NCBI GenBank assembly: GCA_012840135.1 | Contig: DUMA01000022.1 | Coordinates: 310,001-374,000 of the forward strand | Source of the DNA: Thermoanaerobacterales bacterium | GTDB lineage: Bacteria; Bacillota; Thermosediminibacteria; Thermosediminibacterales; Tepidanaerobacteraceae | DNA length: 64,000 nucleotides | Direction: 5' to 3' | Shown: one piece after another, positions 30,525 to 64,000 of the stretch | Layout of the letters: each line of letters starts with the position of its first letter | Numbering within the stretch: the first letter of the stretch is position 1 | Translations under genes and position numbers: made by a program | Notes under the pieces: generated by a model | The model's input: only the letters and a program-made list of their open reading frames with translations | Database searches by the model: none | What the model was told of the DNA's origin: nothing

Positions 30525-30811
30525 TATAACTATAGGGACGGTGTGGTGAAGTTGTATATGAAACTAATAAACAAACCTATTAAACTCATAGCGGGCTTTA
30601 ACCCTGACGGTAAAGTAACACCCACCAGTTTTATTTACGGCAGTCGCCATTACAGAGTGACACGGGTACAAGATTCATGGTCTTATCATAGCTGGGAACA
30701 CGGAAATATACAACATTTTAAGTTACAGGTTATGAGCAATAGCGGTCAGGAGATGTTATGCGAAGCGGCTTTTTTGCAGGATAAAATACAGTGGGTGCTT
30801 GTAAAAATTTA
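30525..30811 (+). repeat. Copy 1 of a dispersed gene-sized repeat
   Basis: From 30525 to 30811 the DNA is nearly identical to 37694-37990, starting at a TATAAC/TATAAT box and running through the coding region. Copy 1 lacks the LexA palindrome present in copy 3 because of a short deletion after TATAGG. Confidence 0.85.
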
Positions 30812-30812
30812 A
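30559..30812 (+). CDS. Small beta-rich protein, family copy 1 (DUF6504-like)
   Basis: 84 residues from the internal ATG at 30559; weaker in-frame starts lie upstream. The chain (KPIKLIAGFNPDGKVTPTSF, GSRHYRVTRVQDSW, LQVMSNSGQEMLCEAAF, WVLVKI) reads as a compact all-beta domain with conserved Trp and Tyr. It resembles the small DUF6504-type domains found with translesion polymerases, but this is a tentative match. It is about 97% identical to the copy at 37.7 kb. The promoter looks degraded: the -10 is kept and the operator is lost. Confidence 0.65.
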
Positions 30813-30868
30813 TTGCGGGTGGTAAAGATTTTTTTGAAGGGAAGATATCACTTTACTGCCAATACTTC

Positions 30869-31306
30869 TCAATCAGTCTTTTTTCTATAATAATAGTCTT
30901 TAACTACCTTTACCCAGTTATAGGTATTTCTCTTAAATTCCATATTCATTTTTTTGCCATTATATAGCCATGCTCCAGAATTAGAAAATATAGCCCCCAA
31001 ATGGCTTGAAAGCTGCGCACGAGTTTCGTTCATCCCGAAGTTTTCGTAAATAAATCTCCCAATACCATTTTTCTCTTCTTTCCGCCGAAGCTTAGCAACG
31101 TTATTGGCAAGAGATTTCCACTCACCGTCACTTAAGTACTCATCAAGCTTATTAAGTTGTTCAACTGAAATCTCATCTTCTAAAGGCTTTTTCATATTCT
31201 TAAATTTTCGTTTTATGTAGATATTACCCTCATCGTCGATCCTCCAGTAAAATTCTTTAGCTTTTCCGCCCAAGGTACGTTCTAACACCCAACTTTCGTT
31301 TGACAT
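30869..31306 (-). CDS. Hypothetical protein next to the DUF6884/GIY-YIG gene
   Basis: 145 residues, charged, soluble, no recognised domain. Seen: ETRAQLSSHLGAIFSNSGAWL near residue 95 and a Lys/Tyr-rich C-terminus (VKVVKDYYYRKK). ATG at 31306 lies ten bases after AAGGG. It follows the nuclease-like gene on the same strand by 131 bases and may be its accessory partner. Confidence 0.6.
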   Translation of the reverse strand: MSNESWVLERTLGGKAKEFYWRIDDEGNIYIKRKFKNMKKPLEDEISVEQLNKLDEYLSDGEWKSLANNVAKLRRKEEKNGIGRFIYENFGMNETRAQLSSHLGAIFSNSGAWLYNGKKMNMEFKRNTYNWVKVVKDYYYRKKTD

Positions 31307-31437
31307 TACTAGCACACCCTTTTATATTTGAATGAAAGAAAATAGATTTTTGCTTTCAGCTTTTAAATCTTAACATGGAAAATATATTACCGTAGGAGTT
31401 TTACTTTCTTGGTTATCATTGGCTTTGAAAAAGTCTC

Positions 31438-32850
31438 TTAAATGTCATTACCTTTGGTGGCTGGTCTTAGGTAATACCTAATCTTTATTGTCGAACTCAT
31501 GCCACTAGGTGTTGTATGGATCAACTCATCTCCTGCTTGCATTTTCTCATACATAATTCTGCATACCTGTGGCATCCTGTTTTTCATACCCATCTGCTTA
31601 TGAATATCTCCTGAAACTAAATCAATATAATCTTCACCTCTTATCTTTGCTTCCTGCAACAATTTTTCAATGTACTGCCTTACATCGTCAGCCGTTTTCC
31701 GCTCCAAATCAGGAGATTCTCTAGCCTTTCTGGAACAATTCACCGCCCTTTGCAATCCTGCCTCTCTCCCCATATTTTTTATGTAGCTATCATTTCCAAA
31801 TCTGGCAAGCCACTTAACTCGCTCTAATTCCTCATCAGATAATGGCTGCCCCTTCAAGCCCTGTTTATTCCAAAGACCGCTGCTCGAGATTTCTGAGGCA
31901 GGATTATTTAAGCCTAGCCAGTTGTTGCTCGGTCCAAACGATGGATCCCTATTGAGGGTTGCAATAATACCTTCTTCTAATCTCAACCGCTCAGCTTCTT
32001 CATCAACCGGAAAACAGACAAACGTGATGTTGTCCCTTAAATATCGGCTAATTTTTGCCTCAAGTTCAGTTTCAAACCCTTCATTTATTAAGTGCCCATA
32101 GTTTCTTTTATTTTTTGATTTGTGCATATCAATTTCCAACACTTGTAAATATGGGTCCGAAGTCATTTTCAAAAAAGCACGGCCTATGTTTTTACGGAAA
32201 ATACTGCCATCAGCATCCTCTTCTAAAAAATGGTCTCTTAATCTTTTCAACAAACGGTCTTGTCCCGAGTGAGTACCTACGCGAACTATCCTGTCCATGC
32301 CATGGTAGCTTTCGCCTTTTTCAAACATGATGTATATGCCATTTTTATAAGGAATCCGATTTATCATCGTCCAATCCAAACGCTGTAGACCATTAAAAAG
32401 CATATGAAGAACTATCACTTTGTCTGATTCTCTTTCAAGCGCAATAAGTCTCTCCAATTCTGGAATCCTTTCTCCTTGCCTCTTGCCTTTGAGAGGAAGC
32501 CAAAAATGAACCAAATAGGCCATAAGATTTTCTTGATAAACTTCGCCGGCCAAAATAATAAACTCATCGCGTTCTAAGTCGGAAACTTTTCGTAATTCGT
32601 TTAACACCATGTCTCCCCATTCTCGCCGTTCCTGGACGTTTTTATTTTTTAAGGTTTCGTTATAAGGTTCAATAATCATATCCTCCGGTACTAAGCCATA
32701 CTTTGCAGAAAGAATAAATATCTTATCTGCGACAAGCTTTGCCAAAGCATATGCCAACCGAAACCGCGGGCTTTCCGAATACAAGTCTCTTGCCGGACAT
32801 TTATATGCTTTTTTATTGCTTGTGCATGAAATCAAAGCAATCCTTGCCAT
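31438..32850 (-). CDS. DUF6884 domain fused to a GIY-YIG-like nuclease domain
   Basis: 470 residues. Residues 1-130 are DUF6884-like (ALISCTSNKKAYKCPARDLY, ILSAKYGLVPEDMIIEPY), related to YaaA/deoxyribosyltransferase folds. Residues about 165-260 look like a GIY-YIG nuclease (NGIYIMFEKGE ... RIVRVGTHSGQDRLLKRLRDHF). The C-terminal 90 residues (YIDLVSGDIHKQMGMKNRMPQVC) resemble the small domain attached to restriction endonucleases. A DNA-cutting defence role is inferred. ATG at 32850 is six bases behind GAGG. Confidence 0.7.
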   Translation of the reverse strand: MARIALISCTSNKKAYKCPARDLYSESPRFRLAYALAKLVADKIFILSAKYGLVPEDMIIEPYNETLKNKNVQERREWGDMVLNELRKVSDLERDEFIILAGEVYQENLMAYLVHFWLPLKGKRQGERIPELERLIALERESDKVIVLHMLFNGLQRLDWTMINRIPYKNGIYIMFEKGESYHGMDRIVRVGTHSGQDRLLKRLRDHFLEEDADGSIFRKNIGRAFLKMTSDPYLQVLEIDMHKSKNKRNYGHLINEGFETELEAKISRYLRDNITFVCFPVDEEAERLRLEEGIIATLNRDPSFGPSNNWLGLNNPASEISSSGLWNKQGLKGQPLSDEELERVKWLARFGNDSYIKNMGREAGLQRAVNCSRKARESPDLERKTADDVRQYIEKLLQEAKIRGEDYIDLVSGDIHKQMGMKNRMPQVCRIMYEKMQAGDELIHTTPSGMSSTIKIRYYLRPATKGNDI

Positions 32851-33078
32851 AAACATCCTCACCTTTATTTTACTTATTTGTTTATATCTAAGTATTAGAG
32901 TCTGTCTTCAACTTAAATGATATAACAAATAGTTTGCACGTACTTCAAAAGGATTTACAATGACATCTTCTATATTCTCATTAATATCTATTGGCTAAAA
33001 TTTAGAAAGAACAAGATACTTATTGCCAACGTTACAATTTATTCCATTTTATGAAATTTGCCCTTGTAGCAAAATCCT

Positions 33079-33738: not shown

Positions 33739-33943
33739 GAGATCAACCTCCTTATCTTCCCTATATTCCCTTATATTTAACATACCATATAAGGCAGTAA
33801 TGCAAAAAAATAGGCTATTAACCATAACTTTTTATATTTCTTAAAGTTTTATTTTTATAAAATTTGTATTTGCTTTAAGCTGTCTATGTATTTTTTTACC
33901 TTCTCAGGAATAAAACTAATAACTTTAGCCGGAATACTCCGAG

Positions 33944-34088
33944 TACAGGATACATGGCCTCATCACAGTTGGTAACGCTAAAATATACAACAGTTTAAGT
34001 TACAGGTTATGAGCAATAGCGGTCAGGAGATGCTATGCGAAATGGCTTTTCTGCAAGATAAAATGCGGTAGGTACTTATAATATAATA
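33944..34088 (+). pseudogene. Copy 2 of the small repeat gene, 3' half, decayed
   Basis: About 145 bases match the second half of the 30.5-kb and 37.7-kb copies (shared core AGTTACAGGTTATGAGCAAT), with substitutions and an in-frame TAG where the others encode Trp. No start or promoter remains. The rest of the 33739-34263 stretch is AT-rich with no gene seen. Confidence 0.8.
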
Positions 34089-34263
34089 ACTTAGTCCTGT
34101 AAAGCCGGATTTTATGAAACTACTCTCCATTCAAGCTTTGACATGAAATAATTTATAAATTTCTACTACTCTACTGACAATTAGTCTAGAGAGCGGTAGT
34201 ATGAAAAAACTTTTATCATTAGATAGCACCTGCTCTAGTTTCATTTAGGGTTGTTCAAAGTTT

Positions 34264-34875
34264 TCACCCTAATTTACGATAAAGCTCTAGTGATGGTTTG
34301 ATAATCTTGTCGTAAAGGGTTTGACTATCATTAATGTCATATAAATTGTTCTTAATTAATTTTCCTTGAAAGCTTATGTATACATCATTATAATCAATGT
34401 TTTCGGGGTCCTTAAAGACCTTATCATCATTGTATTCAATATGTCCCATGATGTTTTCAAACTTGTTAAACCCTTTGACTTGAGGTTTTTTATTAATATT
34501 ATATAAGACACCTGAATAAATGATCGGCTCGTCGATGTGTTTATCATTGAGCATAATTCTCAGGTATAGGACTCTTAAGTCATCGCCTAACTCAGTAATT
34601 GTTTGCCCGCGTTCACCAGGCTTTGTTTTTTCTTCTGGAACGAAAAACACGGCAAACTTTTTCAAAAGCCAAAGGGGTACATTATTGGCCTCTAACCCTG
34701 TAGAACTCCGGGTGCTGATCCCATAACCTGACGGTTTGCCGATAACAAATTTTTCTTCTTCTTCCCCAAGGGTGCCTTCAATTTCCTTGATCAAGTAAGA
34801 AACTTCAAGGTATAGCTTCTGAATGAAATCAAAAGCCAAAGCTGTCTGCCGGATAATCTCCTCTTTATTTGTCAT
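34264..34875 (-). CDS. Hypothetical partner of the PD-(D/E)XK nuclease
   Basis: 203 residues from ATG 34875. No recognised domain; seen are a helical N-terminus (ALAFDFIQKLYLEVSYLIKEIEG), then FVIGKPSGYGISTRSSTG and VFFVPEEKTKPG. It overlaps the end of the nuclease gene by 11 bases, so the two form an operon and probably act together. Confidence 0.65.
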   Translation of the reverse strand: MTNKEEIIRQTALAFDFIQKLYLEVSYLIKEIEGTLGEEEEKFVIGKPSGYGISTRSSTGLEANNVPLWLLKKFAVFFVPEEKTKPGERGQTITELGDDLRVLYLRIMLNDKHIDEPIIYSGVLYNINKKPQVKGFNKFENIMGHIEYNDDKVFKDPENIDYNDVYISFQGKLIKNNLYDINDSQTLYDKIIKPSLELYRKLG

Positions 34876-35755
34876 AATTCCCACTCCCTTTCCCTTCAAA
34901 AAAGATATTATTCTTAAAAGGATCTAACTTTCCTGATTGCAACAAAGAGCTAAAATTGATATGACGGCGGGAGAAAAAGATGTTCTTTGGACAATAGTAG
35001 AGTGTTCCTGGAAGGTATAAGCTTTTTAAAAAACCGATAAATGCTCCGCGGAATTTAGCAGTTGCCGCTTCAAAAAAGATGCGGTTAAGGCATTTTTGAA
35101 ACGGGTCGAAAATATTTAGGATATTAAAACCTTTGAACCCTCGCAAACCTTTCTTGTCCAGCAGTGTGTAAAGGTCAAGAGCAAACTCGCGTTCATTCCT
35201 GGGTAAATTTAAGCTGCTATTTAGGATATCCTCTAAAAAAGAGGAGACTTGTTGCCAGTTTGTCCATTTTATATAATTCTGAAAATCTGGTGGAACGGAT
35301 TCAAATTTATACTTTTTGTAAATATGGTCAGCGGTAATGGCAATAAGTTTAAAGTATTTATTATAAGCTTTAGCCTCTGACTCACCTTCTTTAATTTCCC
35401 TTATCAACTGAGCTTCATTCTTTGTTGTTTCCTTCCCAAAGTTGGAAAAGTATTTTGCTTCTACAAGCAGATAATAATTTCCAATTAGTATCACTAGGTC
35501 CGGTTCTGTGTTATCATCATATCGCGGCCAGAATCTAAATTCTGCATCTATGGCTTCCTGATTGGTTACTTTAAAACCTAATGTTTTAAGATATTCTTTT
35601 AGAAAAATCTTTCGGTTTGCATATTTAAAAAAAGAAAAGACATTGGAAGTTAAAATGTCTTCCATTCTGTCAAGGTCTTTAGTATCTTTTTTAGTATCTT
35701 CATTATTATTAGTACTTTTTAAAGGAAGCTTTCCGTGTAATTCAGCGGCATACAA
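34865..35755 (-). CDS. PD-(D/E)XK superfamily nuclease-like protein
   Basis: 296 residues from a TTG at 35755 that follows a perfect GGAGGTGAT site; a GTG 12 codons earlier has no good site. The catalytic pattern is visible: EPDLVILIGNYYLLVEAKYF gives Asp ... Glu-x-Lys. An N-terminal helical stretch DRMEDILTSNVFSFFKY is shared with nucleases of restriction type. A defence role is inferred from the fold and the accessory neighbourhood. Confidence 0.7.
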   Translation of the reverse strand: MYAAELHGKLPLKSTNNNEDTKKDTKDLDRMEDILTSNVFSFFKYANRKIFLKEYLKTLGFKVTNQEAIDAEFRFWPRYDDNTEPDLVILIGNYYLLVEAKYFSNFGKETTKNEAQLIREIKEGESEAKAYNKYFKLIAITADHIYKKYKFESVPPDFQNYIKWTNWQQVSSFLEDILNSSLNLPRNEREFALDLYTLLDKKGLRGFKGFNILNIFDPFQKCLNRIFFEAATAKFRGAFIGFLKSLYLPGTLYYCPKNIFFSRRHINFSSLLQSGKLDPFKNNIFFEGKGSGNYDK

Positions 35756-35884
35756 CCCTATCACCTCCGGTTTTTTAAGTTTTATGAGCACTCTTTCAAC
35801 TGCTTAGATAGATTCTTCTTTAATTCGGACACACATATGAGACCTTATGTGATACATATATTAATGATAATTCCAATGATATCG

Positions 35885-37720: not shown

Positions 37721-37990
37721 TTGGTTGGTGAAATTGTATATGAAACTAATAAACAAACCTATTAGACTCATAGCGGGCTTTAACCCTGACGGTAAAGTAA
37801 CACCCACCAGTTTTATTTACGGCAGTCGCCATTACAGAGTGACACGGGTACAAGATTCATGGTCTTATCACAGCTGGGAGCACGGAAATATACAACATTT
37901 TAAGTTACAGGTTATGAGCAATAGCGGTCAGGAGATGTTATGCGAAGCGTCTTTTTTGCAGGATAAAATACGGTGGGTGCTTGTAAAATA
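37694..37990 (+). repeat. Copy 3 of the dispersed gene-sized repeat
   Basis: Full copy with an intact promoter and LexA box. It is nearly identical in sequence to 30525-30811; a decayed half copy lies at 33944-34088. Confidence 0.85.
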
Positions 37991-38003
37991 TAATTTCTGG
38001 TGA
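37740..38003 (+). CDS. SOS-controlled small protein, family copy 3 (DUF6504-like)
   Basis: 87 residues from the ATG at 37740; GTG 37728 is a possible longer start, and no clear Shine-Dalgarno site is seen. The compact beta-rich sequence (KPIRLIAGFNPDGKVTPTSF, YGSRHYRVTRVQDSW, SGQEMLCEASFLQDKIRW) is close to copy 1. The tight LexA control shows a DNA-damage role; a link to translesion polymerase genes is inferred from the tentative DUF6504 likeness. No polymerase or nuclease gene follows here. Confidence 0.75.
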   Translation: MKLINKPIRLIAGFNPDGKVTPTSFIYGSRHYRVTRVQDSWSYHSWEHGNIQHFKLQVMSNSGQEMLCEASFLQDKIRWVLVKYNFW

Positions 38004-38051
38004 CCATCCTGCAGCCGTAAATGAATTATCTGAAAATGTAATGAATAAAAG

Positions 38052-50470: not shown

Positions 50471-53182
50471 TTACTTCCATCCCTGCATCAGATGCTTCCT
50501 TTTTTCCTTACTGTCCAGCACCTTTGCACAGCTTTCCCAGTCAACTTTTCCCATTTTGTTATGATACCTCAATTCAAAGGGATGCTGTCTCGGGATGGCA
50601 TCGATCTTACGTTTTGCTTCCTCAATATCATTCAATGCCACGTGAATCCAGACATCTTCCAAAACGTCGGGAATCTGTCCGAATATGCCGTAAATATTGG
50701 CAAGCCGCTCGGAAAGGAGGGAATGCACCCTGTCTTCCACCGACCCTTTATATCTCATGTTGTAGATATAAACCCTGTCATAAACTTGACCGATGCGCTG
50801 AATGCGGCCTTTGCGCTGTTCAAGCCTTGTGGGGTTCCAGGGCAGGTCGAGGTTTATCAGTGAACCCAAAGTCTGCAAATTTAACCCTTCGCTGGCGGCA
50901 TCAGTGCCTACCAAAACCCGCAGTTCCCGCCTTCTTACCATCTGTTTGATTTCTTCCTTGCTCCGTTTTTCATAAATGCCGCCGATAAATATTCCTGACT
51001 TATCTCCGCCTGCATAAATACCGATCTTTTCATTGGGCAGGTCGTTGGATAAATTCTCTGCTACCCAGCAGGCAGAATCATAATATTGAGAGAAAATAAT
51101 ACAGCCCCGTTCGATCCAGTTGTCGTCAATGAGAAGTTTTAAAAGCAGCTTGTATTTTGGGTCTTTCTCCTTATTGGCATTAAGGGTTTCAATAAATTTT
51201 GCCAGGCAGGCTCTTTCTTCATCCGTGATGTTTTTGATTTCGCTCTGCAGGGCTTTTTCTTCTACCATCTCCTCTTCTTCAAAGTCTTCATCGTCGATAA
51301 CTTCACCCCAGTTAGAAAGCATTTTCTCTGCGGTGTTTTTGCCTGCAGTGATGGTGCTGCCAACCCTTTTCAGGAGCAAAGTTTTCAAAAACCCCCCGCC
51401 TTTTACTCTCTTTTGCAATAATGTGCAAAATTCTTCCGCATACCCGTAGGCTTCTTTCAAATACGGCGGCAGGACAATAGCCTCATCATCGCTTTCCCCC
51501 ATCAATTCCACTTCTACCTTTTGCAGATACGGCTCGCCCGTTTCGGGATTGATGGTGTTTTCCAGGAAATCCCGCGTCCTGCGTACAATATGCCTGATAA
51601 AAGGATTATGTTCGGCAATAAAATTATCGTCAATTATCCTCCCAATCCTTCTTTTGTCAGGACCGCTCAACTCTTCAATCGCCTCTGGCTTGATGACGAA
51701 TTCATCATCAGCCATGCCGAGCTGCCGCCTGATGCGTCCGAAGGTCATCTCCCCCTCATTGGCAGGTGGGAAAGGATCCCTTAGCCATTCCCAGTTTTCC
51801 TTATCAAAGCGGTCGAGGCTTTCTTTACCCATAATCAGGTTAAGGGCTCGGGCAGGATATTTTCTCCACTTGCTGAACTGACTGCCCAACACACTATCGC
51901 TGCCCTGGGCCAGAATGTTTAAAAGATCCCAGGCTTCGATGGGATACATCTGGACGGGGGTAGCGGTGGCCAGCAGCATACTTTTGGTGCGTTTTGAGAT
52001 TTCAATGAGAAACTTAAGTAAATTATTGGGATTAGGTTTTTCTTCTTCTTTGCCAGGACCTAAATTCCTTCTTCTGGCCCTGTGAGCTTCATCGACGATG
52101 ACGCATTCGTATTCCATATTCAAAAGGTGTTGTACCTGTTCCGAATTGGCGGTAATCAGCCCCTGAGAAACAATCCCCACCCGCCTGGGGCATTTTTTGA
52201 TGGCTCCATCGCCGTTAGCAGGATATTTAATGCCGTTCTCATCCACCCATTCCCTGCCGTTCCAGACTGCCGAAGGCATATCCAGAAGGTTCAATATTTC
52301 GTCCTGCCACTGCCATAACAGGGTTTTAGGGACGATTACCAGGATGGGCTTTTCACCATAAAGGGCCATGAGCTGAGCCGAAAGAGCAAGCTGTACCGTC
52401 TTGCCCAGCCCCACCATATCAGCCAGCACATATCTTGCCCCGTATTTTTTGTGATCATTAAAAGCCAGATTGACGAAATATTTTTGGTGTTCCCACAGGC
52501 CCAATTCCTGGCGGTAAACGGGAGCCTCAACAACTGCAGAAGCAGGCTCTGGGTCTTCCTTCCACTCGTCAACCGAATAGATAACCTTCCTCTCGGAGAT
52601 CCGTTTAATGTCTTCAACAATAAAGTCCGCCAAAGGCACTGCATGGGGGTTGTTCCAGAAAAAGTCAAATTCCTCCTGGACCCATTTTACCCCTTCCTCG
52701 GAATCGTCTTCCCATAGGATTTCGTAGTTCAATTTCCATCCCATGCAGGTTTCGTTTACGCTGCCGATAAAGGATGTCTTGCTCCCGTCTTTTAGGGTAA
52801 TCACTCCCGCCTTCCCGTGAATAAGGCCAAAGACATCGTTGGGAACTACTTTAATCTGTAGCTTTCCGATTCTAATCAAGGTATAAAGTTTTTTCAGCCT
52901 TTCGGGAGCGCTGCTGTATATTTCTTCTGGCTTTTTGCTGCACCATTCCCGCCGCATGGCATTGACCGCAGCGGTGGCGGTGATGACATCCTCTTTTTGC
53001 ATCTCTGCATTGCAGACAACCCTGACGCACCCCTCGATTTCTTCAATGGCTTCCCCTGCGATCTCCAGAATGGAAGAGCTGAAATAGCCTGCAATCCTGT
53101 CGTAGTTCACCGCCACTTTTAACTTATCATTCAAAAAAGTTTTATCCAATCTTTTTCTTCTTGAAGAATAGCGATATATCAT
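50471..53182 (-). CDS. PLD-domain SNF2-family helicase of the defence island
   Basis: 903 residues. N-terminal phospholipase-D-like domain with a single HxK-type site (H122, K124, then GSVNE and Asn152; half of a dimeric PLD site). SNF2 ATPase: Walker A GLGKT at 258-262, VIVDEAHRAR, and the C-terminal RecA lobe with GTDAASEGLNLQ and QRKGRIQRIGQ. Such proteins track or cut DNA in phage defence. Last gene of the island; it follows the methyltransferase gene by 27 bases. Confidence 0.85.
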   Translation of the reverse strand: MIYRYSSRRKRLDKTFLNDKLKVAVNYDRIAGYFSSSILEIAGEAIEEIEGCVRVVCNAEMQKEDVITATAAVNAMRREWCSKKPEEIYSSAPERLKKLYTLIRIGKLQIKVVPNDVFGLIHGKAGVITLKDGSKTSFIGSVNETCMGWKLNYEILWEDDSEEGVKWVQEEFDFFWNNPHAVPLADFIVEDIKRISERKVIYSVDEWKEDPEPASAVVEAPVYRQELGLWEHQKYFVNLAFNDHKKYGARYVLADMVGLGKTVQLALSAQLMALYGEKPILVIVPKTLLWQWQDEILNLLDMPSAVWNGREWVDENGIKYPANGDGAIKKCPRRVGIVSQGLITANSEQVQHLLNMEYECVIVDEAHRARRRNLGPGKEEEKPNPNNLLKFLIEISKRTKSMLLATATPVQMYPIEAWDLLNILAQGSDSVLGSQFSKWRKYPARALNLIMGKESLDRFDKENWEWLRDPFPPANEGEMTFGRIRRQLGMADDEFVIKPEAIEELSGPDKRRIGRIIDDNFIAEHNPFIRHIVRRTRDFLENTINPETGEPYLQKVEVELMGESDDEAIVLPPYLKEAYGYAEEFCTLLQKRVKGGGFLKTLLLKRVGSTITAGKNTAEKMLSNWGEVIDDEDFEEEEMVEEKALQSEIKNITDEERACLAKFIETLNANKEKDPKYKLLLKLLIDDNWIERGCIIFSQYYDSACWVAENLSNDLPNEKIGIYAGGDKSGIFIGGIYEKRSKEEIKQMVRRRELRVLVGTDAASEGLNLQTLGSLINLDLPWNPTRLEQRKGRIQRIGQVYDRVYIYNMRYKGSVEDRVHSLLSERLANIYGIFGQIPDVLEDVWIHVALNDIEEAKRKIDAIPRQHPFELRYHNKMGKVDWESCAKVLDSKEKRKHLMQGWK

Positions 53183-53209
53183 TTTTATTTCCTCGCTAAT
53201 AAAAATGCA

Positions 53210-56134
53210 TTAAACCCCATCATTTTTTACAAGCTCGGCCAGGAGCCTGGCATACTTTGCTTCATCCTGCCAGTGGGGCATGGTCTCAATGTGCTCAAGA
53301 GTGGAGATAAATTCAACGATTTCCACGATTATATTCCGCTGGTTCCAGTAGTTCGGCAGCTCGTTTTTAAGCCAGTTTCTGCCCTGCATGGTGTCTTCGG
53401 CTTTGATCGCCTGGTGGAGCGCCGCCAGCACATTGCGGAGCAGGGAGTTGCTGAAACTTTCGGCACCGCCCAAACCTTTCATGCCGAATTCCATGGCGGT
53501 CTTGAGCCTCGCCTGATTGGCGCGGGTGGAGGCAAGCAGGTCTTTGTACTCTTTCACGCCAAATCCTCTGGCCAGCTCCTGGTAGGCCCCGATCTGGTAA
53601 ACTCTCTCTTTTTCCAGGTCTAGCCCTTTGATATAAAATCTTTCTTCAGGTGTCAGCATTTTCCAGAGGTATGTATCAAAACCGCCGGGTGTGAGATAAT
53701 CGTAAGCAATTTTTACCGCTTCGTTAATGATCTTCTCTATGGGAGACTCCTCCCCTGGAGTCCTGGTCTTGGAAAGCTCGTAGTTAACGTCGATGTCTTC
53801 GATCTGCTTATAGGAAGTCAATACTTTCAGGGAAGCCGCATAGGATGCCAGCAGATAATCCGTATCGCTGAAGTTGGGGTCTTCCTTGTCATCCAGTTCC
53901 CGCATGCTGTTAATCTGCCTTTTCACTTCCAGTTCTATCTCTGGATAGAGTTCGTCAAGATAGGCCGTTTCTTCTGATGTTTGTTTGCGAAGGACTAAAA
54001 GCACAGTCCCTTTGACATAGTTACCCTGCTTCAGCCCACTGGCATCGGTTTCCGTGGCAATATTCCAGGCTGCTGTAACCCTTAATCCCGCCGCCCAGAG
54101 GATCAGGGTCAAGTCTGCCCACACGCCCACGTTCTGGTGGGTAAACATGACAATTTGCATGCCGTCCTCTGGCATATGTTCCGCCAAATTCCGATATATC
54201 TCCACCATGCTCTGGTTGAAGCTCTCACCCGTCCCCTTTACCGCTAGGGCCCTTTTGCTGTCGGCATACCACTCGGGAAAAACATCAAGCAACATCTTTT
54301 TGTCCCAGGCCAGGAAAAATTCGGACAGTTCGTGGTAGTTGATGGCGTCGGCATAGGGGGGATCAGTGAACCAGATTTCAGATACTACTTTGTTATTCCT
54401 TGCATCTATTAAAATAGGTAATGATTTAATACTTTTTGCAAAATTCATAGCTTTTAAATCTAAAGACCAAATATTGTATAAATAATTAAATCCTCTAACT
54501 GGATAGTTAAACAACGTATTAAATGCTTGATTAATAAACGTTTGTTCAATTGTCTCCCTTAATTGATGCCATGTGGATAACTTTGAATTTAAATTAAGAC
54601 ACCTATTCACCCCCAGCAGCCCCACAACTTTCTCCTTCTTCATCCTTGCATGCTTACCAATCAGCTCCATTAGCAGCCCATGTACCAGCAGTTGCCTGGG
54701 GTTAAATAAATGATGCCAATGGGTCCAGCCTCTCTCGTAAGTTAATTGATTTGTATTCCAACCAGGCTCAATTCTCATGTCAGGAATATAACCTTTTTCC
54801 TGCCATTCGTCGAATCTTTCCCTAAGTAACTCTATAACCTTTTTCTCCCTCTGTATATCCTCTTCAGTAGGAGCTGTATAATATCTTTCTGTTTTTAAAT
54901 TTCCATTTTCGTCAATATAGCTTTTTTCATATCTAATGCAATACAATCTCTCTGTAAATATATCATCTTCCAAACTACAACAGTCTTTCTTTCCCCACTT
55001 TCTCAAGTCATTGGGGATATTATATCTATAAGGCCTTTCTATGCCATCATCCCTATCCTTCCTGATGCTTGGTATGGGAGTTAGATTATTACAGTGAGGA
55101 CAATATAAATTGTAATTTTTTATGGTAGACATTGCTTCAGCCTGCTTCATTTCTTCCTTTGTTGCATTGGATTTTATTTCAATATCAAACCCTTGCTCAT
55201 TGTTTTCTTTTAATATAGCCACCGTCTTCGTCCCCTTGCCGATCACCCAAGAAGGCGCCAGGGGCACGCGCCAGCCGCATTCAGGACAGATTGTTTCGTT
55301 ACAGTAAAGATATGAGTTTGCCCTGTGCCCCTTCTCGTTGTGCTCGATCCCCCATTCGGTGATTTGTTTGTCGGCCAGTTTAAAAATCTTTTCCTGAAAC
55401 TTTCTTAACTCTTTTATTTCTTCCTTGGAACTGCCGTTGATATTGAGGGCAGCCCAGGTTAAAAGCATGGCAATTGGATTTAAATCGGAGGCGTACACAT
55501 CACAGCCCATCCTCGCTGCTTCAAAAGGGACGCTCCCGCCGCCACAAAAGCAGTCGCCTACCACTGGGATTTTGCCGAACCTTCTCCTGCCGAGTTCCTG
55601 CACCAATTCCTGGAGGTTTGAGGCGTTTGTGCCAAGATGTTCGTTGATCTTTTTCCATTCTGTTTCGGGGAGGTTGTCCACTTCTTCAGGCCTTACACAG
55701 TAAGTTAGTTTCTGGTCATAAGACAGCCTGTTGAAGACCAGCCGTTGCAGGTTCTCCTTTTCTTCCCTGGTTATATCTTTTCGGTAGGATATCTTACCGT
55801 TATTTTCTTCAAAATACCGTTTTCTTTCCCCCGGAGTGAGATTGTCATATATATCCTGTATGGAGATGGGTTTATTTTTCCTCAGCCACAACCCCTCTTC
55901 ATCCATGGTCAGGATTTTTAGGAAAATTTCCCGATCTTTTTTGGGGTTACTGCTGGCAGGCATTAAAAGCCCGAGCAGTGCCGCCCTGACGAGGATGAGG
56001 GGCTTTCTGCCCCACCACTTGCCAAGTCCCGTCAAAGTTTGACCGCTTCCCGCCTTTCTTTCCTTATAGCTTTCCTTGGATACCTTCGATACTGGAAATT
56101 GCACCTCTATAAATGATTGATCATAATAAGCCAT
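53210..56134 (-). CDS. DUF1156 DNA methyltransferase of the defence island
   Basis: 974 residues. DUF1156 N-terminus (KERKAGSGQTLTGLGKWWGRKPL) near 25-45, SAM-binding motif I DCFCGGGS at 194-201, and catalytic DPPY at 591-594, so an amino-methyltransferase (N6-adenine or N4-cytosine). Two zinc-ribbon-like Cys pairs lie between (CPECG near 283 and CPHC near 345). It probably marks host DNA as self. Seventeen bases after the DUF3780 stop; ATG behind GAGGCGGTG. Confidence 0.87.
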   Translation of the reverse strand: MAYYDQSFIEVQFPVSKVSKESYKERKAGSGQTLTGLGKWWGRKPLILVRAALLGLLMPASSNPKKDREIFLKILTMDEEGLWLRKNKPISIQDIYDNLTPGERKRYFEENNGKISYRKDITREEKENLQRLVFNRLSYDQKLTYCVRPEEVDNLPETEWKKINEHLGTNASNLQELVQELGRRRFGKIPVVGDCFCGGGSVPFEAARMGCDVYASDLNPIAMLLTWAALNINGSSKEEIKELRKFQEKIFKLADKQITEWGIEHNEKGHRANSYLYCNETICPECGWRVPLAPSWVIGKGTKTVAILKENNEQGFDIEIKSNATKEEMKQAEAMSTIKNYNLYCPHCNNLTPIPSIRKDRDDGIERPYRYNIPNDLRKWGKKDCCSLEDDIFTERLYCIRYEKSYIDENGNLKTERYYTAPTEEDIQREKKVIELLRERFDEWQEKGYIPDMRIEPGWNTNQLTYERGWTHWHHLFNPRQLLVHGLLMELIGKHARMKKEKVVGLLGVNRCLNLNSKLSTWHQLRETIEQTFINQAFNTLFNYPVRGFNYLYNIWSLDLKAMNFAKSIKSLPILIDARNNKVVSEIWFTDPPYADAINYHELSEFFLAWDKKMLLDVFPEWYADSKRALAVKGTGESFNQSMVEIYRNLAEHMPEDGMQIVMFTHQNVGVWADLTLILWAAGLRVTAAWNIATETDASGLKQGNYVKGTVLLVLRKQTSEETAYLDELYPEIELEVKRQINSMRELDDKEDPNFSDTDYLLASYAASLKVLTSYKQIEDIDVNYELSKTRTPGEESPIEKIINEAVKIAYDYLTPGGFDTYLWKMLTPEERFYIKGLDLEKERVYQIGAYQELARGFGVKEYKDLLASTRANQARLKTAMEFGMKGLGGAESFSNSLLRNVLAALHQAIKAEDTMQGRNWLKNELPNYWNQRNIIVEIVEFISTLEHIETMPHWQDEAKYARLLAELVKNDGV

Positions 56135-56150
56135 TTTTACACCGCCTCAT

Positions 56151-56720
56151 CTAGTCGTCAATTTTCCTGCCGATCAGCAGGTCGAAAAGCTCCATCTGCC
56201 TGTTGGACTCTTCCACGGGATTTTCAGTCAGGGCGTATCTTACTGCCTTGCGCCAGCCCCGTTTGTCCTTCAGCCCTCCCGTAGCCGCATTTGTCATGGT
56301 GAAAAGCCACCAGCGCTCCTCGGGGCTTAAGCCCAGCCAGTTTTTAATCGCCGTCGGGATCACCGACGGGTCGCAGTCCTCGATAGCCCAGGCCAAAAGC
56401 ACCATTTCTTTGCCGAAAAGCCGCTGGACGGGTACCTGCCCGATATGCCATTTGCCGACGGGCAGCTTTTCTTTTTTCAACCTGCTGTTGAATTCGTCCT
56501 TCAGGGCATCTTCGATGAGCTTCCATTTGTATTTGCCCAGCTCCACTTTCGGCCTGTCGATGGTATAATCAATAGCCTGAACCTCTGTCTCCTCCAGCCA
56601 CATGAAGCGCTCGTAGATGACTACCTTCCCGTCATTACCGCGGGGGATAACGACTAAAAAATGGTGCTGGGACTCGGCAGGATCAAAACCAAAACCAATT
56701 GTCCGTCTTCTTTCTGCCAT
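56151..56720 (-). CDS. DUF3780 protein of the defence island
   Basis: 189 residues with no known fold: RTIGFGFDPAESQHHFLVVIPRG at the front, then LGLSPEERWWLFTMTNAATGG. DUF3780 genes travel with DUF1156 and DUF499 genes. Its start overlaps the DUF499 stop (TAATG), so the two are coupled and probably made in fixed ratio. Role unknown. Confidence 0.8.
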   Translation of the reverse strand: MAERRRTIGFGFDPAESQHHFLVVIPRGNDGKVVIYERFMWLEETEVQAIDYTIDRPKVELGKYKWKLIEDALKDEFNSRLKKEKLPVGKWHIGQVPVQRLFGKEMVLLAWAIEDCDPSVIPTAIKNWLGLSPEERWWLFTMTNAATGGLKDKRGWRKAVRYALTENPVEESNRQMELFDLLIGRKIDD

Positions 56721-59700
56721 TATTGCACAATCTCCTGTTCCTTAAAATCTTGCAGTGATTTTTTCTTCGCGGCCACCCAGTCCAGAAAGTTCTGCCCCGT
56801 GGCAAACTTTGCAATACCGTATTCCAGACTGATGTTGACTTTACCCTCAGGCATGATATTGCTTCTGACAGCATCCATGCTGTTTTCTAGTTTTTCTATA
56901 TTCACTTTCAGAGAGGTGTCTACCGTCATTTCCAGCCAGCCCTTATCGCCGCCATTCTCATCCACTCTGTAAAAGGTTACAATCACATCGGAGATCTCTG
57001 CACCGTGCTTTTTTAAGAGGCCAAGCTCCTGGTAGGTTTCTGCCGTGTCATTGGTTTTGCATCGTTTGTAGAGTTTTAAGGGTTTGTCCTTATCGACGGC
57101 GATACCCCTTTTTTCTCTATCAATTTTAACCTGGATAGTTTCGGAACAAGTTCCCTGGGCTTCCGCTACCGCTAGCACATAGGTACAGTTGCTCGGAACA
57201 ATAATCTCTCCATCATAAATACCGCCGTATTCCCTGGGGTTTGAACCGTCGGTGGTATACCTGATGGAAACGGCAGGAGCGGACACAAGCTCCACAATCT
57301 TATCTTCACCTCTATTGTATACCCTGTATTTGAGCGTGATTTTATTCGTCCAGTCTACAGGGTCACCCGTCTCATGTTCTCCAGTGCTGTCTACACACAA
57401 AAATGACAGTTTCAATTCTCTCGTCTTGAATTCATTTAAGTTTTCCACCAGGCTGGAAGCTGTTGTAGCAGGTCCACCTATTTCGTAATGTACTCTATCC
57501 CCGTACTGGGGGATAAGTTTCAGGGTCACCTCTCCTGTTGAGTCATCCCTGCGCAGCTCTTGAACCAGCACCTTTGTTTTTTCTTTCGGGAAAGGCGGTT
57601 TTTCAATATAGCCGCCGTGTTCCCGCCAGATGCCTTTCTTCAGCATGTCGTCTTTTAAATCATCCAGAGCCCGCGGCAGATGCCACTGCCAGGCTGGATT
57701 GGTAGCTGCCCGATCTTTAACATCGCTCCAGCGCATTTCTTTCTGGGTAAACAAGCGGTCTTCGCATTTTTTCCTGAAGGTTTCGTCTGTCACATCGGTG
57801 GTAAATTTCTGCCTCTGCAAAAGGACATCCCTGATTTGTTTTTCACCGTTATAATCATTGCCCGTAAACTCCATGAAGAAGTCAGCCTTTATTAGTCCAT
57901 TTTTGGCAGGGTAGTAGAGCTGCACAAAGGTTTCTCTTGCCGCCTGCAAAAGATCCAGCTTGATTCTGTCCCGTTTATCCGATGCTTTTTGGTATTGAGG
58001 ATTATTGGCAGGCGTTTTCTCTTCTTCCATCCTGGCAATGATTTGATTAATCGCCCTGTGTTCCTTGGCAGCGTGATAAAGTTTATCCATGGTGCTTCTT
58101 GACCCCGAGAGAAACATCACTCTGTTTTTGAAGCGCTCGTTTTCGTAGAATTTCTGCAGGTCAGGGTGCAGGCCCGAGCCTCCTGCATATGGTTCAAAGA
58201 GGACAAGCAACACTTTATCTTCTGAAAGGCTTATTTCATCTACGGCAGGGAAAACCTGCACCTTCTGGTAGCAGTCACCCAGCGTCGGCTTAAACTTTTC
58301 CTCCAGAACGGTCCGCAATTCCTTTTTGGCGCTTTCGTTATCATAGGAATCCACCAGCGAATTTAATTCGGCAATGAGATTTTTGGTGTTTTTGAAAAAC
58401 AATCTGCTGTCCCTGTCGGTAAAAAGGTACCAGGCTCGCATGACAAAATCGTCCAGAGCCCGCTTCACTCGTGTGATATCCTTCTCAGGTTCACACAAGT
58501 ACCCCACAATTTCCTGTAAAGAGAGCCCTAAAAGGGCATTAGGTATATCAGCTAGAGACGAGACAAGAATGAGTTTAGCCAGCTCCTGCATGCAGGTTTC
58601 ATTCATGGCTGCATCGACAACTTCGGCAACAGATTTACCGTTGGCGGCAATATCGTGGGCAATGGCGTTGGTAAGGGAAGGCTTGATCTGAGTAATGGCG
58701 GTAAGCATTTCGGGATCGTTTAAATCAAAGTCATATACGTTAACCAGATACTTCTCCTGTGCTTTTGGCCTATCTCCCCTGTACAACTGAGAGATGATAA
58801 TCCTCATTAGTCGTATCAATCCCCGCGTCTGCTGAAAGCCGGGGTTTTCTTTAAATCGTGCATACAAATCCCTGATGGAAGGATGGAATGGGTAGGAATC
58901 TTTGATTCCCACAAACACCTGCTCTGGGGATAGGTTGGTATACCCCATCTGTTTCGCTTCCAGGACAGCCTGTTTGTATGCATTGGCAATTTCGTTTATT
59001 TCACTTTCCTCGGGCAGTTCCTTAAAAAGCCTTTTCCTTAAGATGTGGTATATTTCATCCGATGTGCTGCTTACAGGTTCAATATTCAGTGCGGAACGGT
59101 TGACCTCGTGTTCCAGTTCCTTAAAAGATGACTGCAGCAGCTCGCTTCCACTTTCATATGCAGCTTTTAAGTCGGAAATAACAAGGCATACGTTGGAAAG
59201 CTCCTCTTTGCCCAAAGCATTGAACAGATTGGCCAAAGCTATCGTAGTTACTGTAGCCAGATTTGAATCACCGATCATTTTTGATTTGGCGTTTTCCAAA
59301 TATGGAGGAAGTTCATCCAGCAAAATGAGGAGAGGTTCCCCCCTCAAAAGATTAATCCAGGCCGTCTGCCCAGGTGCCTGCAGAGGAGTATAATAGTCCT
59401 TAAAGACTTCTTTCTTACCAAGTTGCTCGGCAATGGCTCCCCAGATGCCATAAGGTGCATCGCTTTCCCTGCCCGTAAAGGCCACAACTTTGATTTTTCC
59501 CAGATGACTGTCTTTAAATCCATCGCCCATTATTTTCTGTCTGAATTCGGGATGCTTGGCCAAAAGTCCCAGGGCAATCATGTTGTGGGTTTTACCGCCA
59601 CCCATGGACTGGGTCAGTTTGATCAAGCCCGTCGCTCCCTGCCTGTGAAAACGCTTAAAAGCGGTTTCCAGTAAAACTTTCATCCCTTGGGTCATAAAAT

Positions 59701-59827
59701 TTTCTTCAAAAAAACGATAAGGATCTATTCTGTTTTCCATTAGATCCGTCAAATCCAGCACATCATCCCGTTTTGTTTCATCAAAGACACTTTCTCGTGG
59801 TTTGCATAGATCAAATAAACTCTGCAT
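56720..59827 (-). CDS. DUF499 ATPase of the defence island
   Basis: 1035 residues. P-loop SMGGGKTH (GGGKT at 76-80), Walker B LLILLDE at 166-172, then VCLVISDL and a long C-terminal region with a beta-rich part (VSIRYTTDGSNPREYGGIYDG near 875). DUF499 proteins are AAA+-like ATPases of defence operons; this one may be the sensor or motor. ATG eight bases behind AAGGGGG. It starts the DUF499-DUF3780-DUF1156-PLD helicase operon. Confidence 0.85.
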   Translation of the reverse strand: MQSLFDLCKPRESVFDETKRDDVLDLTDLMENRIDPYRFFEENFMTQGMKVLLETAFKRFHRQGATGLIKLTQSMGGGKTHNMIALGLLAKHPEFRQKIMGDGFKDSHLGKIKVVAFTGRESDAPYGIWGAIAEQLGKKEVFKDYYTPLQAPGQTAWINLLRGEPLLILLDELPPYLENAKSKMIGDSNLATVTTIALANLFNALGKEELSNVCLVISDLKAAYESGSELLQSSFKELEHEVNRSALNIEPVSSTSDEIYHILRKRLFKELPEESEINEIANAYKQAVLEAKQMGYTNLSPEQVFVGIKDSYPFHPSIRDLYARFKENPGFQQTRGLIRLMRIIISQLYRGDRPKAQEKYLVNVYDFDLNDPEMLTAITQIKPSLTNAIAHDIAANGKSVAEVVDAAMNETCMQELAKLILVSSLADIPNALLGLSLQEIVGYLCEPEKDITRVKRALDDFVMRAWYLFTDRDSRLFFKNTKNLIAELNSLVDSYDNESAKKELRTVLEEKFKPTLGDCYQKVQVFPAVDEISLSEDKVLLVLFEPYAGGSGLHPDLQKFYENERFKNRVMFLSGSRSTMDKLYHAAKEHRAINQIIARMEEEKTPANNPQYQKASDKRDRIKLDLLQAARETFVQLYYPAKNGLIKADFFMEFTGNDYNGEKQIRDVLLQRQKFTTDVTDETFRKKCEDRLFTQKEMRWSDVKDRAATNPAWQWHLPRALDDLKDDMLKKGIWREHGGYIEKPPFPKEKTKVLVQELRRDDSTGEVTLKLIPQYGDRVHYEIGGPATTASSLVENLNEFKTRELKLSFLCVDSTGEHETGDPVDWTNKITLKYRVYNRGEDKIVELVSAPAVSIRYTTDGSNPREYGGIYDGEIIVPSNCTYVLAVAEAQGTCSETIQVKIDREKRGIAVDKDKPLKLYKRCKTNDTAETYQELGLLKKHGAEISDVIVTFYRVDENGGDKGWLEMTVDTSLKVNIEKLENSMDAVRSNIMPEGKVNISLEYGIAKFATGQNFLDWVAAKKKSLQDFKEQEIVQ

Positions 59828-61237: not shown

Positions 61238-64000
61238 TCATTCTAATATTTTTTTAATAAATTCAATTACATATTTTCGCTTTAATCTATCATGGCAATA
61301 CTGATTCATGTAATTTCGTAAACAACTATAGCAGCTGGTATCGGCTTCCCTGCCTCCGCATTCGCACACGGAAACGATTTCTAACGTCCGGTGCAAAATA
61401 TCAATGAAGTTTTCTTTTTCAGCGATCCGTTTTACATGCCCAGCTCCGCCAGGTACATCATCGAAGAGTACCAGGGCGGGACTGTAAGGATTGCCCGCAT
61501 AAGGATAGAGAGTTCCATCAACATCCTGCCGTTCAATCTCCAGCACACTGCAAGCCCCTTCCAGAAGTCCGTAAAGTAAGGATTCCCAGAAACCCGGGCG
61601 TCTGTCATCATAATCCATAATACATAACCTTAAAATATCGGTTTTAAACTCATATCCCAACGAATATATATCAGCTTTACCGTTACAGGGTTTTCCCCAC
61701 GGGCTCTTGTGAGATGTTAGAGGTCTCCCCGTATTTACTATAGAATAACCACATTTCTGGCAGATCTTAAAGCCTTTTTTACCCGCATGATTTATTACTG
61801 CCAGTTTACCCTCGCCTGCTTGTACTTTTATAGTAAAAGCCCCAAGGTTTAATGTTATTTCTTCTTCCATTTTTTCTTCCTGAGCAAAATATTTTCTTGT
61901 GGTATAAGTTTTTTGGGGTTTCGACAGGTTTGGCATTTTTGGTTCCTCGGCGATAAAACCAAATTCAGGAGTAATAAATACTCCATGTTGGTATCTTATT
62001 TTCTGGCCGCAAATGCATGTTTCTATATCCTTCCGTTTATCAGCTATGTCACTCTGGTAATAACCGCAATAATCGCAAATGGCATACACATATTTTACAG
62101 GTTCCCGGTCGGGGAGCTTCTTTACATACCTGCTGGTCCACAGCTTTCCCCCAGCAATTAACTGACTCTCAGGCGCATATTCGGACAGTGCTACTTTGAG
62201 GTCCCTATTGAGTTCCAAACCCTTAGCTTCCTCGCCATGATGATAAATTTGTAATTCCACCACATCTACGGGAAAACCGTACTTGGGAATTACATTATGT
62301 TGAGATAAAAAGTTAAGAATATATCGCTTCTCTAAAGTATTTATGGTCTTTTTGATAATATCAGCTTTATCGTATAACCTCGCTTTTTTGTATTCCTCTT
62401 CGACGGCTCTTAATTCCCTTAGGTCAGCCATCAGCTGCGCTTCTGCCCTGCTAAGCATTCCGTCTTTTTCATCTAATAGCCCCTCCAACCAGCTCCAGTC
62501 GTCAACTCCAAGTATTCCCCATAATTTTTCGGGAATAATCCGTTTTAGACTGGTTTTTAACTCCTCAGGGCGACGTACTAAAAAATCTCTTAATGCTTGG
62601 GTAGCCGATCTTCCGGATTCCTTAAAAAAAGCATTGACCTCGCCAAAATACTCAGGCCATTTTTTCCAAAACATTGCTAGAGCCACTGCATACATATGCC
62701 TCTTTAAAATTTTTTCGTTACTAATCTCGATATGCGGAGAACGGATTTCCCCTTTAATAATCCGTACTGGTTCATTATAATGAGCAAAATCATGGGAGCG
62801 TCGCTGGCAAAATGTAAGAGCAAAGCCTGTCGCATTAATCCTCCTCCCTGCGCGGCCAGCCCGCTGTATATAATTGGCCGCAGTTGGTGGGACATTTCGC
62901 ATAAAAACTGTCTCAAGTTCCCCTACATCAACGCCCAGTTCAAAGGTGGTGGAACAACTCAAAACATTGATTCGCCCCTCGTAAAATTCTTTCTGAATTC
63001 TGCTTGCCATTTCAGTAGTAAGCTGTGCAGTGTGTTCGCTGGTATTCATGAACAAAGGCAAAAAATCGAGATATAGCTTTCTATAATGATTGCTTGCCAG
63101 TTCTTTTCCGAGATCGCATTTAACCAATTTACCATTACACCTGTAAGTAGGACAAACACCTCTAATATTGTGCAATGTAAGGGTTAAGCATTTGTTGCAT
63201 TTATACCAGGTCACAGAATCATCAATTACTGCAGGAACTATTCTCCAGTATTCTGGTTTCAAGATGTATACATCACCATGCCTAGGTTCAGGACGGCTTG
63301 AAAAATGATTTTTCCATGGTGCCCTCTCTCCTACCAGCAATTTACTCCAGATTTTTCCCAGAACTTCTTCAGCATTTTGGCGGGTAATGCTATTATCTAT
63401 GACCTTCGCTAATCTCAATAAATAATCCAGGCGGGCGTTGCTATGACTTTTATCTGTAGGATTCCAGCTGTAGATCCGTCCTGGAATTTTCATATTATCT
63501 TTAAAATAATATTGCTTATTTCTGGGTTCAAAGAAGGAATCGCTGGGTGAAACACAATCAGGGAACATAACAGCACCGTTTTTACGTACGCTGTCCAAGA
63601 GAACCATTATAAGGGTGGTTGCTTCGTCGGGAGTTAAGTTCCAGGGTTCCTGACATAAGGCCTTGGGAGGATTCCAGTTCAATGGCGGGACAGGCAAAAA
63701 TCCCAGCATTCCCTGGCCCTCCAACCCTAAGATTCGGTCTGCAGCCATAAACTCATGCAAAACCCATTTCCAGGCTTCCTGTTCTAACTGTTGAAAGCTC
63801 ATATCTGGAAAAAGATGAAGATCATAAATGACCTTCTTTACAAAGGCAGCCAAATCGCTAACTCTCCATTGATTTTCCAGAACCTGAACTTTATATTTCT
63901 CCAGAGTCATCACTATCAGCCGGCGGCGCAAAATCTGATTATAAGTAGCTTGTAGATAGCTGGCAAAATAAGCCGCATCCTGGCGGCTGTCAGAAAAAAT
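61238..64000 (-). CDS. DUF1998 SF2 helicase (5' end outside the window)
   Basis: The frame stays open to the window edge and reads FSDSRQDAAYFASYL just before it, so the gene starts beyond 64000; only the C-terminal 920 residues are here. Seen: helicase motifs V/VI (STTFELGVDVGELETVFM, YIQRAGRAGRR), several zinc-like Cys pairs (CNKC, CDYCGY, CQKCGY), and the DUF1998 end motif CECGG ... CYSCLRNYMNQYCHDRL. Similar helicases occur in DISARM (DrmA/DrmB), Druantia and repair (MrfA). First visible gene of the island. Confidence 0.85.
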   Translation of the reverse strand: MFSDSRQDAAYFASYLQATYNQILRRRLIVMTLEKYKVQVLENQWRVSDLAAFVKKVIYDLHLFPDMSFQQLEQEAWKWVLHEFMAADRILGLEGQGMLGFLPVPPLNWNPPKALCQEPWNLTPDEATTLIMVLLDSVRKNGAVMFPDCVSPSDSFFEPRNKQYYFKDNMKIPGRIYSWNPTDKSHSNARLDYLLRLAKVIDNSITRQNAEEVLGKIWSKLLVGERAPWKNHFSSRPEPRHGDVYILKPEYWRIVPAVIDDSVTWYKCNKCLTLTLHNIRGVCPTYRCNGKLVKCDLGKELASNHYRKLYLDFLPLFMNTSEHTAQLTTEMASRIQKEFYEGRINVLSCSTTFELGVDVGELETVFMRNVPPTAANYIQRAGRAGRRINATGFALTFCQRRSHDFAHYNEPVRIIKGEIRSPHIEISNEKILKRHMYAVALAMFWKKWPEYFGEVNAFFKESGRSATQALRDFLVRRPEELKTSLKRIIPEKLWGILGVDDWSWLEGLLDEKDGMLSRAEAQLMADLRELRAVEEEYKKARLYDKADIIKKTINTLEKRYILNFLSQHNVIPKYGFPVDVVELQIYHHGEEAKGLELNRDLKVALSEYAPESQLIAGGKLWTSRYVKKLPDREPVKYVYAICDYCGYYQSDIADKRKDIETCICGQKIRYQHGVFITPEFGFIAEEPKMPNLSKPQKTYTTRKYFAQEEKMEEEITLNLGAFTIKVQAGEGKLAVINHAGKKGFKICQKCGYSIVNTGRPLTSHKSPWGKPCNGKADIYSLGYEFKTDILRLCIMDYDDRRPGFWESLLYGLLEGACSVLEIERQDVDGTLYPYAGNPYSPALVLFDDVPGGAGHVKRIAEKENFIDILHRTLEIVSVCECGGREADTSCYSCLRNYMNQYCHDRLKRKYVIEFIKKILE

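Follow-up and report, generated by a model that had tools for sequence, protein, structure and literature searches.

Several described systems resemble, in part, the gene reported here. PDC-M57A/B, a phage-defence candidate in PADLOC-DB 2.0.0 that presumably entered the collection through guilt by association, is modelled as two proteins, and no mention of PDC-M57 was found in the open-access literature searched. CMoRE/PD-T4-3 combines in a single gene a GIY-YIG nuclease and a modification sensor, the latter being a C-terminal region for 5hmC/5ghmC without known homologues, according to the accessible part of PMC12923530. The type IV enzymes Ahi29725I and Apa233I join a winged helix to a GIY-YIG domain (wH-GIY-YIG; PMC11037411, in excerpt), and predicted EVE-GIY-YIG fusions, in partially available sources, offer a further precedent for pairing GIY-YIG with a sensor. 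GrwAB, as far as the available part of PMC12137116 describes it, is a type IV restriction system that stops 7-deazaguanine phages, which escape through changes in DpdA.

The DUF6884 domain is widespread and has an assigned reaction only in DpdC, which hydrolyses dPreQ0 to dADG (PMC12839542, in the part available). DUF6884 is also named as the dpdC domain in a published survey (PMC11888242, in part). The same domain or fold occurs in B. subtilis YfjM and E. coli YaaA, for which the accessible portions of the sources describe no nuclease domain.

Here, we describe a single gene in which DUF6884 precedes a GIY-YIG-like nuclease domain and a winged-helix-like tail. It lies in the window, i.e. the whole 64,000-nt stretch analysed (contig DUMA01000022.1 of assembly GCA_012840135.1, positions 310,001-374,000 of the forward strand). 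Both halves match the PDC-M57 models (PDC-M57A, 1.2e-41; PDC-M57B, 2.7e-70), but one gene here covers what PADLOC models as two proteins and adds the tail. Unlike CMoRE, the protein lacks the GIYxY motif (it reads GIYIM), and PD-T4-3 is not among the five PADLOC families matching it at E<=1. The wH-GIY-YIG enzymes differ in domain order. The winged helix of the present family has weak support and is lacking in many members; neither "DUF" nor "YaaA" appears in the available part of PMC11037411. DpdC shares a homologous DUF6884/YaaA-like domain, although most of its models span about 300 positions, its gene belongs to the dpdA-C operon, and the fused protein has no full-length DpdC match. GrwAB is of the DUF262-DUF1524 (GmrSD-like) type in the accessible text, with proteins unrelated to the fused gene. 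Each half, and the pair as a listed candidate, is already known; what is added here is the fused form in three parts, the spread of the gene on its own and a proposed DpdC-based mechanism. No paper on a DUF6884-GIY-YIG fusion was found in the open-access literature searched.

Domain architecture of the fused gene

The open frame of the fused gene spans 31438-32862 on the minus strand. Its likely start is the ATG at 32850, which is shared by most homologues in the alignment and is preceded, six bases upstream, by the ribosome-binding-like stretch AGGTGAGG. Compared with the copy at locus L031 (genome G086), differences at codon positions 1/2/3 amount to 9.8/6.0/24.1%, a pattern expected for a protein under purifying selection. 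The original prediction had read from the same ATG a DUF6884 domain, a GIY-YIG-like middle and a restriction-type tail, and both the start and the three-part arrangement are supported (Table 1). PDB sequence searches with the fused protein and with a 25-row profile gave no real match. A structure model built from 25 homologues reached a mean pLDDT of 90.1 and a pTM of 0.73, superseding a poor earlier model from 11 close homologues (pLDDT 69.0, pTM 0.44).

Table 1. Features of the fused gene and its immediate surroundings (positions in the window)
Feature	Position	Strand	Remarks
Fused gene, DUF6884 + GIY-YIG-like nuclease + winged-helix-like tail	31438..32850	-	470 aa; ORF, homologue-aligned start, codons checked
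DUF6884/YaaA-like domain	32443..32850	-	residues 1-136; Pfam PF21818, E 1.5e-36
Cys9	32824-32826	-	invariant DUF6884 residue
Lys13	32812-32814	-	invariant DUF6884 residue
GIY-YIG-like nuclease domain (predicted)	31813..32427	-	residues 142-346; hhalign to GIY_YIG_2, conserved columns, predicted b-b-a-a-b-a order
Tyr173	32332-32334	-	GIY-motif Tyr
Arg203	32242-32244	-	conserved Arg of GIY-YIG-like domain
His207	32230-32232	-	conserved His of GIY-YIG-like domain
Glu292	31975-31977	-	conserved Glu of GIY-YIG-like domain
Winged-helix-like tail domain (probable)	31459..31707	-	residues 382-464; model confidence, weak PDB fold matches
Small downstream gene	30869..31315	-	148 aa; not a conserved partner
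Direct repeat, left copy	30544..30827	+	brackets accessory stretch

The identity of the first domain, likewise as originally predicted, is firm: the PF21818 match scores 125.9 bits against a gathering cut-off of 30. CxxxK and LSAxxG have been described as DUF6884 motifs (PMC11701544, in part). Cys9 and Lys13 of the former are kept in all 17 alignment rows that have the domain, and the latter appears as LSAKYG at residues 47-52; a relative at L062 has lost the LSAxxG motif and retained both the Cys and the Lys. The domain model superposes on E. coli YaaA (5caj) with Z 10.3 and an rmsd of 2.5 over 115 residues, the next unrelated row scoring 6.0.

The middle part is supported, on profile and conservation evidence, as a divergent GIY-YIG-like nuclease domain. 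Aligned by hhalign to six GIY_YIG_2 proteins, it gave E 1.9e-5 over 124 columns with a score of 40.0, which 0 of 50 column shuffles reached (mean 14.2, maximum 21.4). The scores against Eco29kI (19.1) and UvrC (20.3) are marginal (one shuffle in 50 did as well in each case), and an HNH profile scored under the shuffle mean. An earlier hhalign comparison with Eco29kI, UvrC and YhbQ, made from few close sequences, was not significant, with the reversed self-alignment scoring higher (26.0). Pfam made no GIY-YIG-type call in the window protein itself and only weak ones across 25 members (GIY_YIG_2 in 4, best 8.2e-4; GIY-YIG in 3, best 0.029). GIY-YIG structures were absent from the match lists of whole-model searches against PDB and BFVD, which barely probed the middle domain.

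The first motif is present in all 25 relatives (24 GIY, 1 GVY), with Tyr173 and His207 kept in every one. The nuclease reading had originally been staked on a conserved Arg and Glu, and it survives, since Arg203 and Glu292 are each retained in 24/25. We take the GIY Tyr, Arg203 and Glu292 to be residues of the catalytic GIY-YIG type. The predicted order comprises strands at 171-182 and 185-192, helices at 200-208 and 217-229, short helices between 234 and 274, a strand at 275-281 and a helix at 285-301; in the model, the GIY Tyr sits on the first strand, Arg203 and His207 on the first helix, and Glu292 on the last helix. Because the second (YIG) motif lacks its Tyr (position 190 is Arg in 23/25 and never Tyr, with Gly192 kept in 25/25) and the usual terminal Asn of GIY-YIG enzymes is not fixed among the 25 relatives, the domain is named GIY-YIG-like, and these alterations could mean that catalysis is changed.

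The tail, with pLDDT block means of mostly 79-96 in the model, probably adopts a winged-helix fold, although its best PDB matches, winged-helix proteins at Z 5-6 (best 5.7), fall under the safe level of the tool; the predicted third domain is thus present with a weak fold match, and it is absent from many relatives. This domain also ends an unrelated DUF2089-type zinc-ribbon protein at L042.

Fused and separate forms, spread and neighbouring genes

Among 38 named loci, all three parts lie in one ORF in 21, and the fusion lacks the tail in that ORF in 5 (26/38 fused, 5/26 of these tail-less). DUF6884 and nuclease occupy separate ORFs in 5 loci, with L059 resembling a broken fusion; the nuclease occurs without a detected DUF6884 in 5, including L080 at a contig edge; one locus has DUF6884 only, and one is a fragment without a domain match. 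Separate ORFs are found, for example, in Azoarcus (L078) and Candidatus Methanoplasma (L084), and fusions extend to Capnocytophaga (L074). In L040, the nuclease gene overlaps a DUF6884/YaaA/DpdC-like gene by four bases. Since the two domains are fused, share a locus (31 of 36 named loci in which a nuclease was matched, fusions included) or overlap, they probably act together.

The fused gene appears patchily. A match was found in 24 of 398 genomes of the phylum, of which about 11, that of the window included, carry an intact fusion, the remainder having truncated, broken or single-domain copies. The window protein shares 79-86% identity with copies in six other families (f4, f15, f17, f50, f52 and f56), whereas MurC (named by eye) in the same genomes is 45-61% identical; within the same genus (G341), the values are 85% for the fused gene and 89% for MurC. 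Judged from this discrepancy, the gene moves horizontally between distant bacteria. A scan of viral contigs with the whole fused protein yielded no relative.

In 13/13 close relatives (two of them 5'-truncated), the nucleotide match to the window goes no further than the borders of the fused gene, and none of the 13 carries the 148-aa downstream gene. The original prediction had joined these two genes into a unit, a reading that we reject: the small gene was found at no other fetched locus of the family, and has no convincing family in Pfam and PADLOC-type profile scans, while 248 other genomes yielded 2 distant relatives of it.

Around other copies of the fused gene, restriction and defence genes recur. 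These copies have more in common among themselves: a DUF4268 candidate nuclease gene (PADLOC PDC-S11) precedes the fused gene at 5 loci, and on the downstream side there is a zinc-ribbon gene of 190 aa (identified by eye), complete in 6; the window locus has neither. Type III restriction neighbours, including a mod methyltransferase (by eye), flank the L032 copy, a helicase-PglZ-BrxA-like set (partly named by eye) lies near the L031 copy, and type I restriction subunits and NERD helicases occur elsewhere. When 96 island proteins were compared with 96 control proteins (of 100 listed control ORFs), ResIII was the commonest Pfam family among the neighbours (5/96), and several PADLOC families recurred on the island side only, namely PDC-S11 (4), mad3 (3), and PDC-S26, BrxA, RTasNERD-Hel, REase_I and C3a187 (2 each); among the control proteins, none of the PADLOC families was seen more than once. 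Some loci share neighbours (L031, L049 and L052; L057 and L058) and match totals are not given, so no enrichment statistic is claimed. As a separate observation, the DUF4268 gene lies directly upstream of the fusion in L031 (7336-8478), L032, L033, L049 and L052; the L031 copy shares 96-99% identity with its counterparts at three other loci, and the reading frame is broken in L033.

DpdC homology, proposed role and alternatives

The window protein and 10/10 further DUF6884-type proteins match DpdC models (E 7e-9 to 0.03), the fused protein aligning to positions 48-105 of 312 only; by these profile matches, DUF6884 is homologous to DpdC. A host 7-deazaguanine pathway was considered and rejected: the genome of the window has no DpdC-model match at E<=1e-5, and one match was found in 396 genomes.

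Phage relatives of DUF6884 comprise 16 records in 7 groups, with one record per group inspected. In 2/7 groups (phiFN37 and HRTV-29), DUF6884 adjoins a TGT/DpdA gene; the TGT of phiFN37 was confirmed by PHROGs (3.7e-46), DUF6884 being flanked on its opposite side by a queuosine-precursor transporter, and the DpdA of HRTV-29 rests on annotation, four scans being silent. In Fusobacterium phage phiFN37 (L046, 3715-6024), a ParB-like gene, TGT, DUF6884 and the transporter form a row that resembles a small operon for modifying DNA with 7-deazaguanine. Weak DUF6884 relatives also occur in 111 Mycobacterium phage records (e.g. Angel and Liefie), and a 906-aa protein at L043 (8544-11264) combines a carbon-nitrogen-hydrolase-like stretch (by eye) with a C-terminal DUF6884.

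A functional proposal can be built on what was observed: the domains that make up the protein, its conserved residues, the horizontal spread of the gene, its company of defence genes and the homology of DUF6884 to DpdC. By analogy with CMoRE, wH-GIY-YIG enzymes, EVE-GIY-YIG fusions and GrwAB, a type IV-like role with DUF6884 as sensor suggests itself, and we lean, with moderate confidence, towards reading the fused gene as a single-gene, mobile, modification-dependent anti-phage restriction enzyme whose sensor handles bases; that the protein senses bases, cleaves DNA and defends against phages is what we infer. The general idea of the original prediction, in which a nuclease is coupled, within an accessory region, to a domain that handles or senses modified bases, holds up, as does its domain reading. 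In the proposed mechanism, DUF6884, a relative of the base-editing DpdC and the DNA-binding YaaA, would take a non-canonical base of the invader into its Cys/Lys pocket, which would read or react with the captured base; the tail, where present, may contribute DNA binding or a second specificity; and the GIY-YIG-like domain would then cut the DNA nearby. The host would need no cognate methyltransferase, because its own DNA would be without the target base. No such methyltransferase was detected among the 4 neighbouring genes scanned with PADLOC (30.9-36.9 kb), and the nearest methyltransferase found, of the DUF1156 type at 53.2-56.1 kb, belongs to another system. Some homologues, on the other hand, do have a methyltransferase gene next to them, such as the type III mod gene (by eye) in L032.

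A bulky modified purine such as 7-deazaguanine is a tentative candidate for the preferred target. The more specific version, in which a DpdC-like Cys/Lys pocket recognises 7-deazaguanine in phage DNA, perhaps by covalent capture at the group on the 7-position, and triggers the fused nuclease, strikes us as rather doubtful; if true, phages would make or mask such bases with DUF6884 beside DpdA and bacteria would find them with the same domain. Against the restriction reading as a whole stand the altered YIG Tyr and the variable terminal Asn of the nuclease domain, the marginal or non-significant hhalign scores against Eco29kI and UvrC, the limitation of DpdA/TGT adjacency to 2/7 phage groups, the 5/38 loci with a nuclease and no detected DUF6884, and the standalone DUF6884 protein YfjM, whose association with abasic and RNA-base lesions, in the available part of its source, points to repair.

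Part of this evidence can be read differently. That both Cys and Lys are invariant is more than a bare binding pocket, and would suit an enzyme whose DUF6884 domain excises a damaged or modified base through this pocket before the GIY-YIG-like domain nicks the AP site, comparable to Brig1/Brig3 or to R.PabI with an AP endonuclease. Glycosylase-based defence exists (in partially available sources), and YfjM has been linked to lesions of the abasic and RNA-base kind and modelled as flipping a base (PMC11701544, in part). Excision is nevertheless unlikely in our judgement. Of the relatives whose reaction is known, DpdC is the closest, and it acts by hydrolysing a group carried by the base; the accessible part of its source describes no base removal. 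YaaA and DUFs go unmentioned in the accessible parts of the Brig papers.

The link of YaaA and YfjM to oxidative stress and lesion binding (PMC11701544, in part) and the GIY-YIG domain of UvrC would also fit a DNA-repair nuclease outside defence, with DUF6884 locating lesions (oxidative, ribo- or abasic) beside which the GIY-YIG-like domain would incise, as in UvrC. The patchy occurrence (24/398 genomes, about 11 intact fusions, many broken copies), the restriction genes among the neighbours and a between-family identity that greatly exceeds the one seen for the core gene MurC make this quite improbable.

Specificity might instead reside in the tail, as a 6mA-reading winged helix of the wH-GIY-YIG kind, with DUF6884 having a structural or regulatory part. 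Winged helices in GIY-YIG fusions read Gm6ATC (PMC11037411, in excerpt) and the tail fold matches winged helices; however, that match is weak (Z under 6), 5/26 fused loci are tail-less in the ORF, and DUF6884 accompanies the nuclease, fused or in the same locus, in 31/36, so that we give this arrangement very little weight. A selfish homing-type GIY-YIG element spreading as a lone gene would account for the similarity that ends at the gene borders in 13/13 close copies, the differing flanks and the many decayed copies, but it is the least probable explanation, given that no common insertion site was seen across these differing flanks and that coupling to DUF6884 across phyla and restriction-gene company recur.

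The fused-gene family ties DUF6884 to a nuclease among restriction genes, through fusion and shared loci across phyla, and to 7-deazaguanine DNA chemistry, through homology and phage neighbours. If the type IV-like restriction reading is true, the family would extend the sensor folds of modification-dependent restriction by one, and might supply a reagent with which to map 7-deazaguanines in DNA.

Surroundings of the gene in the window

Further genes of the window resemble defence components. Two overlapping genes lie at 34264-35791, the upstream one (308 aa) resembling PDC-M15A (8.6e-11) and the second matching nothing. At 50471-59827, a PLD-helicase, a DUF1156 methyltransferase, DUF3780 and DUF499 form a four-gene, Hma-related defence set (PADLOC E 2e-46 to 3e-289), followed at 61238-63931 by an SNF2-type helicase like DruE (7.5e-99) of about half the model length. 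The direct repeat listed in Table 1 recurs at 37726-38009 (96% match over 37726-38002) and, in part, at 33940-34104 (85% over 33940-34081), all copies having the same orientation; these are the only 3 places found in the genome, and the three copies bracket two halves of a low-G+C accessory stretch.
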